Shown here piece by piece: positions 15,693-19,596 of a stretch of DNA of 64,000 bases. Each line of letters opens with the position of its first letter. Within the stretch, counting starts at the first letter, position 1. A model generated the notes under the pieces. It made no database searches and was not told where the DNA came from. It was given only the letters and a program-made list of their open reading frames with translations. The stretch comes from Sulfurihydrogenibium subterraneum DSM 15120 (lineage in GTDB: Bacteria > Aquificota > Aquificia > Aquificales > Hydrogenothermaceae). The DNA lies in assembly GCF_000619805.1 (NCBI RefSeq), contig NZ_JHUV01000012.1:1-64000 (forward strand), written 5' to 3'. Both the position numbers and the translations under genes were made by a program.

Positions 15693-17939
15693 ATGAAGAG
15701 GCTATTAATAAGCGTATTACTTACGACTCCTGTATTTGCTAACGAAGTTGAGGATATAGTCATAGAAGGTCAAGAAATAGAAAAAAAAGAAATAAAAGAA
15801 ATAAAAGAAGAAAAAACTATTAAAGAAAATACCAATTATGAAAAAAATGTAAAATCTGAAGAAATTAAAAAGACAACTGGGAAAAACATAGTTGTAAAAG
15901 ATAATGAACTTTTAAAACTTTTAGTTCAAACATTTTTAGGAAATCAAGATTTAGAGAATGCTTATGAGGTAGCTAAAAGGGCAAGTGAACTTTTTCCTAA
16001 TGACCCTTACTGGTTAAAAATGCTTGGACAGATAGCTATATGGAATAAAAAACCAGAAGAAGGTCTGCAGGCGTATTTAAAACTGTTTGAATTAACAAAA
16101 GATGAAAACCTAAAAAAAGACCTTATAAACTTGGCTGTTGCTGTAAACAGGTTTGACATAGCGAAACAAATTATTGAAGAAGATGTAAAATCGGGTAAAT
16201 ATAGAGACTTAAAAAATATATATTACATATACTACAACGCAGGAGATGTAAAAGAACTCATTTCAATCTTAGAAAACCTTTACAATAAAGAAAAGGATAA
16301 GGAAATACTTTATAACTTAGTATTTTTACTTTACAATTACGGAGATGTAAAAGAGGCTTTACGATACGGAAAAATACTTATAGAAAATCACAATCCAAAT
16401 TTACGAGATGTTTTACTGTATTCAAACGTTCTTTATTCAAATAGAAGATTTTATGAATCTTACAAAGTCTTGAAGAATTTTATAAGAAATATTAATGATG
16501 AAAAGGACGAAAATCTTAAAGTAGAATATCTTAAAACCTTGTCAGGATTAGCTTGGTCGTTAAAGGATTTTGATACTTCTGTTTATGCTTCAACTAAGCT
16601 TTATCAAATGAATAAAGCTGATTTACAAGATTTTATAAGGCTTTATACTTATTACTTTTATAAGCAAAATTATCAACAGTCCAGAAAATTCGCCTACGAA
16701 GGATATGAAAGATACAAAGCTCAAATTTTGTTAGAAGGTTATGTAGAAAGTTTATTTAGACTAAAAAACTATAAAGATATAGTTGATTTTGTAGAAAAGG
16801 AAAAAATTCAAATATCTCAATCTATATTAGTTTTTTCCAGATATATAAATAGCTTATTAAAAATTGGTGAGAAGGAAAAAGCATTATACTTAGTTTCAAA
16901 TGCTTTAGATAAAAACTTTAGTCCTACTATATTAGCTGAACTTATCTATACTGCCATAGATACATCAGACCAAAACTTAGCAAAGTATATTGTTAAAAAA
17001 TATTCTAAGTATGAAAATAATTTAAGAAAAGAATTTGGTTTCTTATATCTATTTTTACAAAACGGAAAGAAAGCTTTACATTTACTGTCTAATTTAAAAA
17101 GTAGTAAAAATCTCAGTGATATTGTTTTATATGCTGACGTATTAAATCTGTATGGAAAATTTGAAGAAAGCTTGTATTTGAAATACAAAATATACAAATA
17201 CTTACACAAAAAAATAGATAGTGGGAACTATACAGATGAAGATTTAGAAAACTATTTAAAAGTAGCAATGGAATTTGCAAGCTCAAGGAAGTTTAATGAG
17301 AGGTTAGAAATTGCAAAATCGAAACTCCATCCTGATGTATATCAAGATATATACTTGTCTTATCAATTTATGTTAGAAAATCAAAATAAAGTAGAGTTTT
17401 TAATGAAAAAACATAGATACTCTTTAAGACCTTGGATGAAGCTTAATTTAGCATTGTGGATGGATGACAGATACTGGCAACAAAAACTTTTAGAAGAATA
17501 TATTGATGTTTTACCAATAAGAGATAGAGTAGAAGCGTTGACAAGAACGGGAGAACTCAAAAAAGCCATGGAGTATGGCTATAAAGGATTAGAAGAAAAT
17601 CCGGATGATTATCTTTTATACAAACAACAACGAGATTTAATCGTTGAGAATATGTCTCAATTTGAGGGTAAATTTTCATATACGGAGAGAGGAGGCGTTA
17701 GTGAATTAGAAGAAAATGTATACCTAGATAAATACATAAAAGAAAATGTAAAAGTATTTTTGAAGTATAGTAAATCTGATATACAAAAATTGGGTTCAGG
17801 ACTAATAAATATAAATGGAAGGAAGAATTTTAGTGTGGGTTTGCAAAAAATATTCGATAATGGAAAGTTAAATGTTGGTTTTGGTGTTTTAGAGACAATT
17901 AACTCAAACTCATACATAGACATCGATTATACACGATAC

Positions 17940-17971
17940 ATATATAATAGAATAAGTTTTAATACAAAAAT
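17940..17971 (+). repeat. Left copy of a 32-bp direct repeat flanking the IS
   Basis: These 32 bases are identical to 18935-18966 and abut the left end of the IS. The bases just outside the match differ on both sides, so the repeat is exactly 32. It lies in pelB coding sequence and is read as IYNRISFNTKI in the intact frame. Confidence 0.95.
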
Positions 17972-18018
17972 ACCTTGAGTGAGAAATTCATTTTTTCAAT
18001 TTTATTTCTAATAAAAAG

Positions 18019-18064
18019 CCAAAAGTAGCTCGGGTTATAATATACCCAAACTACTTTTGGGAGG
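18019..18064 (+). promoter_or_regulatory. IS hairpin holding the transposase promoter and covering its RBS
   Basis: CCAAAAGTAG (18019-18028) pairs perfectly with CTACTTTTGG (18051-18060), with an inner GGGT/ACCC stem (18032-18035 with 18044-18047). The loop contains TATAAT (18036-18041). The right arm overlaps the ribosome-binding GGGAGG (18059-18064) of the transposase. RNA entering from pelB would fold and mask the site; RNA started from the internal -10 box would lack the left arm. This is inference from sequence, modelled on protection of other IS transposases from outside transcription. Confidence 0.65.
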
Positions 18065-18070
18065 TCAAAA

Positions 18071-18907
18071 ATGCAACTGGAAAAGTTTTATAACATACTT
18101 CTCAAAAATTTTCAATCATTTAAAGTTTCTTTTTATAAAAATACAGCTAAATCTAATGCTGGTAGAAAACCAAAAATTACCGATGAAGAAATAGCAGCAG
18201 CTTTCATCTTATCATACATGACTGGAATGCCTGTTTTGAAAATAGCAAGACAATTTATTGATGACTCTATAAAGTCTTATCACATATTTAGAAAGTCAAG
18301 AATTAAAAGAATATACGAACTGCTTAGAATATATCTACAAATGAGAATACTGTCTGTAATTATAGAAGTTTTGGTATCTAATAAAAAACCAAGACTTATA
18401 GTAGATGGTACAATACTTCCAGTAGCTAATTTAAACAGAGCAAGAACCCAGAGAATAAAGAGATTTAATGGAAAGATGTTTTGGGTAAGAAGAAAAAGAA
18501 ATCTATACAGTCAACACTACAAAAAAAGAGTAAAATTTGAAGAGATATACTATGGAGTGCTTGTTATGGTAATTTGTGATACAAAGGGAAGAGTTTATGA
18601 TATTTGGTTTCATCCAGCAAGTTATCATGAAGTTAAATCTTTTAGATTAAGAGCAAAAACCAGTATTTGGTTTAAAAGACTTATAAGCTTTTTTGAAGTA
18701 ATAGGGGACAAAGGGTATAGAGGATGTGAGAATGTTATCGTATGTGAGACAAAAGAGGATAAAGCTCAGAGGCAGATTATTGAAAGCATATTTTCAAGGT
18801 TAAAACAATTTAACGCTCTTAGTAGATGGAGAAAAGGTATAACGCTTCTTTCCTATTTGTATGCTTATGCAATAGGTTATAGCTTTTTCAGGTACTGTGA
18901 GGTTTAA
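18071..18907 (+). CDS. IS transposase, DDE type
   Basis: This 278-residue protein catalyses transposition of the surrounding IS. Probable catalytic residues are Asp112 (IVDGTILPVAN), Asp213 (GDKGYRG) and Glu238 (RQIIESIFSRLKQF); the last motif and the spacing recall IS982 and IS5-type enzymes. The N-terminal GRKPKITDEEIAAAF region is helical and probably binds the ends. The protein is very basic. The frame is intact, with the ATG seven bases after GGGAGG. I cannot assign the family with certainty, and the 32-bp duplication argues for an unusual one. Confidence 0.85.
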   Translation: MQLEKFYNILLKNFQSFKVSFYKNTAKSNAGRKPKITDEEIAAAFILSYMTGMPVLKIARQFIDDSIKSYHIFRKSRIKRIYELLRIYLQMRILSVIIEVLVSNKKPRLIVDGTILPVANLNRARTQRIKRFNGKMFWVRRKRNLYSQHYKKRVKFEEIYYGVLVMVICDTKGRVYDIWFHPASYHEVKSFRLRAKTSIWFKRLISFFEVIGDKGYRGCENVIVCETKEDKAQRQIIESIFSRLKQFNALSRWRKGITLLSYLYAYAIGYSFFRYCEV

Positions 18908-18934
18908 TTATGGCATTAATTTCTCACTCAACGT

Positions 18935-18966
18935 ATATATAATAGAATAAGTTTTAATACAAAAAT
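18935..18966 (+). repeat. Right copy of the 32-bp direct repeat flanking the IS
   Basis: Identical to 17940-17971 and directly adjacent to the right end of the IS. It restores the pelB frame when the IS plus one copy is removed. Confidence 0.95.
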
Positions 18967-19596
18967 TGATTTAAACATTCCTGCTGATGACACACTTTAC
19001 TTACTTTACGGTGGAATGAAAAACAGATTCGGACTAAGTTTAACTTATAACTTTAATAATAGAATGAGTTATTTTATAAATCCTTCATATAACCAGTATT
19101 ACTCTTCAGATAAAGTTAAATTAGGAACGTCTTTTAATCTTTATGAAGAGTTATCTTATAAACTAAGAGTAGGTTATCCCGATTATACGTTTAGATTATA
19201 CACTTCCCACGGTATTTATAATGAAAAAGATGGATACAAAGGAAGTATAGAAAAGATATCTCAATATCCAAACCCTAAAGTTTTACCAAATAGCTATAAT
19301 CAAATTGGTGTAGGGTTTTTATTTGGTTATGAAAATGATAATTCTTATGTAAGAGTTTTTAGGCCATTTTTAAGTGTGGATTTAAGCTATAACGATGTTA
19401 CTGGTGTTGGATACGGATTTGGTGGAGGATTTGGTGGAGCTATTTTCAGACAGGATAATCTAAGTATAGGTTTTAACTATTTTAAAGGTTTTAGAGGAAC
19501 TGCTGATAGGTATTTTAACATTTATCTAAAATATCGCTTATACTACTGAAAGTATTATAATAAGTAATGCCAAATTAAAAAAGGTAGGTGAGAAAT

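Follow-up and report, generated by a model that had tools for sequence, protein, structure and literature searches.

Insertion sequences (IS) usually duplicate 2–14 bp of their target, and the locus described here raises the question of why one of them, in the genome of Sulfurihydrogenibium subterraneum DSM 15120, is bordered on both sides by the same 32 bases. The element lies within the window, that is, the whole stretch of 64,000 nucleotides that was analysed (contig NZ_JHUV01000012.1, positions 1 to 64,000), and it interrupts a gene in whose 5' part only TPR domains were found (Table 1). An earlier note on this DNA had described a 963-bp IS with 17-bp inverted repeats, directly abutted by identical 32-base flanks. 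The flanks are indeed an exact repeat that abuts both ends and the size is right, but the terminal repeats are imperfect, matching at 16 of 17 positions with the mismatch at position 3.

Table 1. Features of the IS and of the interrupted gene in the window (TSD, target site duplication; G098, genome of the sister species)
Feature	Position	Strand	Remark
IS, 963 bp	17972-18934		
TSD, left copy, 32 bp	17940-17971	.	starts with AT, ends with AT
TSD, right copy, 32 bp	18935-18966	.	exact match to the left copy
Left terminal inverted repeat, ACCTTGAGTGAGAAATT	17972-17988	+	same in every own-genome copy
Right terminal inverted repeat, reverse complement ACGTTGAGTGAGAAATT	18918-18934	+	
Hairpin just upstream of the transposase start	about 18019-18060	+	-19.4 kcal/mol, z -5.3
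Transposase, 278 aa, DDE (Asp112, Asp213, Glu238), IS982-related	18071-18907	+	single gene of the IS
TPR-repeat gene, 5' part, target of the insertion (pelB of the earlier note)	15693-17978	+	uninterrupted homologue in G098
Interrupted TPR-repeat gene, 3' part beyond the insertion	18967-19549	+	

Long repeats of this kind recur wherever the element was found with measurable flanks. The own genome (16 contigs) contains two more full copies and one copy whose two parts lie at the ends of contigs C9 and C15, and the exact flanking repeats of its copies, 32, 25 and 27 bp long, with a further 31 bp matching across the two contig ends, are mutually unrelated in sequence. When the whole phylum was searched, 26 of the 136 Aquificota genomes proved to contain relatives. 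In the sister species (G098), where the protein is 97% identical, the duplications are 24, 26 and 33 bp long, and a genome with a 49% identical protein (G039) has nine exact repeats of 23–38 bp and one near-exact repeat of 27 bp. Two other genomes (G028 and G100) contribute duplications of 27 and 29 bp, each with a single mismatch. Furthermore, two G039 copies (L061 and L070) have exchanged their flanks, the crossed flanks matching over 27 bp, and two copies in G046 with swapped flanks give crossed matches of 29 and 26 bp. In total, 22 duplications were recovered from six Aquificota genomes, ranging from 23 to 38 bp with a mean of 28.0, a median of 27 and an SD of 3.7, and 19 of them are exact. 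Since the chance of an exact abutting match of at least 23 bp is about 1e-10 per copy, even at the base composition of the TSDs, and since such matches recur with differing sequence at 19 exact sites, the long repeats are not due to chance. No copy with measurable flanks has a short duplication, and as far as sequence comparison can establish, true duplication within this length range is a family-wide property.

The homologue of the interrupted gene in G098 reads through and contains the 32-bp sequence once, in diverged form, rather than as a tandem pair, therefore the repeats are TSDs made on insertion and did not exist beforehand. Of the other own insertions, the copy on contig C10 faces an intergenic spacer in G098 that is diverged and aligns poorly, and for a third a clear orthologous site was not found in that genome. 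The same evidence bears on the proposal of a truly short stagger (2 bp, AT, for instance), in which the long repeats were either tandem repeats present before insertion or products of recombination or repair at a later time. The own copies do have an exact 2-bp match, AT, next to each end, which a naive search would return as a direct repeat (DR) of 2. However, the 22 long repeats are exact or nearly so, differ in sequence from one another and directly abut the element, the empty pelB-like site is single-copy, and where a TSD does not end in AT its non-AT letters are duplicated as well (e.g. L040, L059). This last point also indicates that AT is part of the target and not of the element, and a short stagger appears very improbable.

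Several copies have no matching flanks. These are four full-length G039 copies (L058, L060, L065 and L069) and one G098 copy (L038), for which an exchange partner was not identified, and the right-truncated copy L072. Inter-copy recombination is demonstrated for the two pairs with swapped flanks, and it is likely that it otherwise explains the copies in which the flanks do not match. In another G039 copy (L073), the left flank is the inverted complement of the flank plus TSD of L059, which suggests a rearrangement between copies, either an inversion or a duplication.

The nature of the enzyme was approached through profiles, phylogeny and structure prediction. Asp112, Asp213 and Glu238, the catalytic residues proposed for the window protein, are invariant among seven relatives. 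The protein falls just short of the Pfam DDE_Tnp_1 cut-off (21.5 bits, cut-off 23), and its best NCBIfam model is IS982 (NF033520; E 2.6e-12, 46.9 bits against a 130-bit cut-off), followed by IS5 (E 3.7e-5). For all seven relatives tested, IS982 is likewise the best NCBIfam model and likewise below its cut-off, and the IS1182 model is matched by one of the seven (E 0.087). Profile–profile comparison (hhalign) with 12 IS982 proteins gives a probability of 97.7 and an E of 1.5e-12 over 219 columns. In a maximum-likelihood tree, the proteins with long TSDs form one clade (support 100/100), whose stem measures 2.8 changes per site; they do not branch within the known IS982 clusters, and, as the tree has a long-branch IS5-like outgroup, a deep IS982 branch and a sister family both fit the position of the clade. 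IS982 enzymes are expected to lack a conserved K/R 6–7 residues after the catalytic Glu, and in this clade K245, seven residues past Glu238, is invariant; the criterion is weak, as K is found at this place in some IS982 proteins too. The AlphaFold model (mean pLDDT 80.3) is confident in most parts and its elements follow an RNase-H-like order; fold matches in the PDB are weak, the best being Mos1 (E 0.033). Set against the IS982 consensus 5'-AC(N)6T(N)5TT, the terminal repeats have the AC ends and the T at position 9, and AT rather than TT at positions 15–16. The element is best explained as an active-looking DDE IS that belongs to a distinct clade related to IS982.

Comparison with known families makes clear where the element is ordinary and where it is not. 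Like IS982, it is about 1 kb long, has one DDE transposase (280–300 aa in IS982), ends in 5'-AC with T at position 9 and shares homology over about 220 columns; unlike IS982, its clade has TSDs of 23–38 bp as opposed to the published 2–10 bp, and its transposases lie under the IS982 cut-off in a separate, long-stemmed clade. The earlier note had suggested that the duplication length may be unusual for the family of the enzyme, and for an IS982-related enzyme with 23–38 bp in 22 insertions this was well judged, as was its impression that the transposase is not of the IS1202 type. The IS1202 subgroup has long and variable TSDs of 16–28 bp and is defined by a transposase of 441–457 aa modelled on TnsB, an element of about 1.5 kb and 5'-TGT ends (PMC10132070). 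Here, in contrast, the protein has 278 aa, the element 963 bp and the ends 5'-AC, and kinship with IS1202 was rejected since size, ends and enzyme type differ; TSDs longer than 15 bp are a property that the two share and not evidence of kinship. In the IS4-related IS1634/IS1549 group, variable duplications of 8–514 bp were known without a mechanistic model as of a 2008 review (PMC2266710), but these IS of 1.5–2 kb have a transposase of another family, whereas the range is narrow here and the target is an A+T-rich block with AT borders. IS1182 elements have TSDs of 2–60 bp according to ISfinder, as cited in PMC7335449. IS5 shares the DDE_Tnp_1-type catalytic domain, but its match is far weaker than that of IS982. 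Long variable TSDs are thus not new as a phenomenon; long TSDs beside IS982 with a signature of AT borders and an A+T-rich block are not described in the papers that were searched.

Genuine IS982 elements provide a control for the measurement. Six Aquificota IS982 copies in G098 pass the NCBIfam IS982 model with about 162 bits, and the same procedure gives TSDs of 13, 10, 15, 9, 5 and 13 bp for genuine IS982 in G098, of the same genus (L131–L135), and in G068, of the same family (L142). IS982 copies on plasmids of other phyla have TSDs of 6, 6, 6 and 8 bp. Since the IS982 controls give short TSDs, the method does not inflate length. A 2020 review lists TSDs of 2–10 bp for 69 IS982 elements (PMC7335449), and the bona fide IS982 elements of Aquificota, with variable TSDs of 5–15 bp, exceed this published range. 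The wider group thus seems to share a variable stagger, which is extreme in the clade with long TSDs. In three of the plasmid copies (L145, L147 and L148), the 6-bp TSDs TACGTA, TAAATA and TACTTA each have TA at both ends, which raises the possibility that IS982-like enzymes in general use symmetric A+T steps at the borders.

The target sites themselves have a clear signature. Among 18 sites with joined flanks, AT forms the first two bases of the duplication at 13 and the last two at 15, which is far above the interior AT frequency of 0.18 (binomial P 6e-15), and the border signal is lost on a shift of one base. Given the polarity, AT at 28 of the 36 TSD ends places the cut on each strand 5' of AT. 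Between the borders, the A+T fraction is 0.81–0.87 in each quarter of the TSD, compared with 0.60–0.72 in ten-base steps outside, and the GC content is 15% in the TSD and 35% in the flanks. The aligned sites thus establish, again at the level of sequence, a symmetric AT cut preference and an A+T-rich block. An outer C/G (C|AT...AT|G) occurs at 17 of 20 borders in G039 and is not family-wide, as it is found at none of six borders in G098.

The reading that we favour, with a probability of roughly 0.85, is that these are genuine TSDs of 23–38 bp, which a DDE enzyme would produce with a flexible stagger of a length that differs from one insertion to the next. The transposase would attach one 3' end of the element to each target strand, in both cases 5' of an AT dinucleotide, and the two joining points would be the borders of one A+T-rich block, about 2.2–3.6 helical turns apart. 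Filling of the long single-stranded gaps would then copy the block. There would be no rigid ruler, and the two active sites would tolerate a range of spacings, which would arise most simply if the A+T-rich target were bent or locally melted. We infer, in other words, that a flexible transpososome carries out staggered strand transfer while the DNA is deformed. The different insertion chemistry that the earlier note had offered as an alternative is not needed, as the DDE residues are conserved and a symmetric, 5'-staggered strand transfer explains all sites, albeit with a stagger of abnormal length and variability.

The lengths are unimodal with a mode of 27 bp (6 of 22), and together with the SD of 3.7 this would also suit a rigid transpososome with a fixed stagger of about 27 bp, with slippage or resection at the gap-repair stage as the source of the spread up to 38 bp. 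Such events would blur one end of the duplication, but the AT cut preference is kept at both ends at any length, and in G039 the repeats of 23, 24, 34 and 38 bp are all exact, hence a fixed stagger is unlikely. The A+T-rich block could alternatively mark single-stranded or unwound DNA as the object of attack, for example, in promoter open complexes, so that the TSD would correspond to the transcription bubble and its surroundings. TATAAT is found in 9 of 18 TSDs, while 3.9 are expected from shuffles, and several G039 sites resemble a -10 box shortly before an ATG. The excess, however, may come from A+T richness alone and is gone once one mismatch is allowed, and at least 5 of the 18 targets lie inside longer ORFs (the pelB-like frame and frames of 435, 273, 266 and 234 aa), which renders attack on promoters improbable.

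A bolder form of the favoured flexible stagger, which is tentative and in our view rather doubtful, dispenses with a molecular ruler altogether: the enzyme would recognise an easily opened A+T-rich block and join the ends to the separated strands at AT steps near its borders, so that the TSD would be as long as the melted or bent stretch. If true, the element would be one whose DDE enzyme responds to the instability of the duplex and not to a fixed geometry. The choice of A+T-rich targets could be a plain sequence preference without melting.

TSD length usually counts as a fixed signature of transposase geometry, and IS families are classified with its help. In the present case, a class of enzymes related to IS982 (2–10 bp) has moved to a variable 23–38 bp, and genuine IS982 in a related genome spans 5–15 bp, which provides a graded and compact (278 aa) system for asking how the stagger is set. 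In addition, entries of 'DR = 0' or 'DR = 2' for IS982-like elements may conceal long TSDs, because a chance AT match adjoins both ends.

The element also has a notable arrangement upstream of its gene. In the window, the 3' arm of a hairpin runs into the ribosome-binding site GGGAGG and TATAAT lies in the loop. A strong hairpin at the ribosome-binding site of the transposase, either overlapping or adjoining it, is present in all Aquificota elements folded, both those with long TSDs and IS982 (the window, L037, L046, L049, L050, L052, L057, L131, L136, L139, L140 and L142; z -4.4 to -7.1); a search of Rfam gave no match. Owing to the position of TATAAT in the loop, a transcript begun inside the element would be without the 5' arm, and read-through transcripts would fold; the hairpin likely blocks the translation of the latter. 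IS10 and IS50 are protected against outside transcription, and the arrangement seen here would resemble that protection.

With regard to distribution, relatives were not found in plasmids, phages or viral contigs, and a single-protein scan of genome contigs gave no matches. An alignment-based contig scan found relatives only in Aquificota and on one identical contig that is binned both as Omnitrophota and as Aenigmatarchaeota. The two entries (L092 and L093) represent one contig region, which carries a single IS relative (53% identical), therefore at least one of the bins is contaminated. Finally, the end of contig C9 (L005) and the start of contig C15 (L004) both lie inside one IS copy with a common 31-bp TSD, and the two contigs are very probably adjacent.
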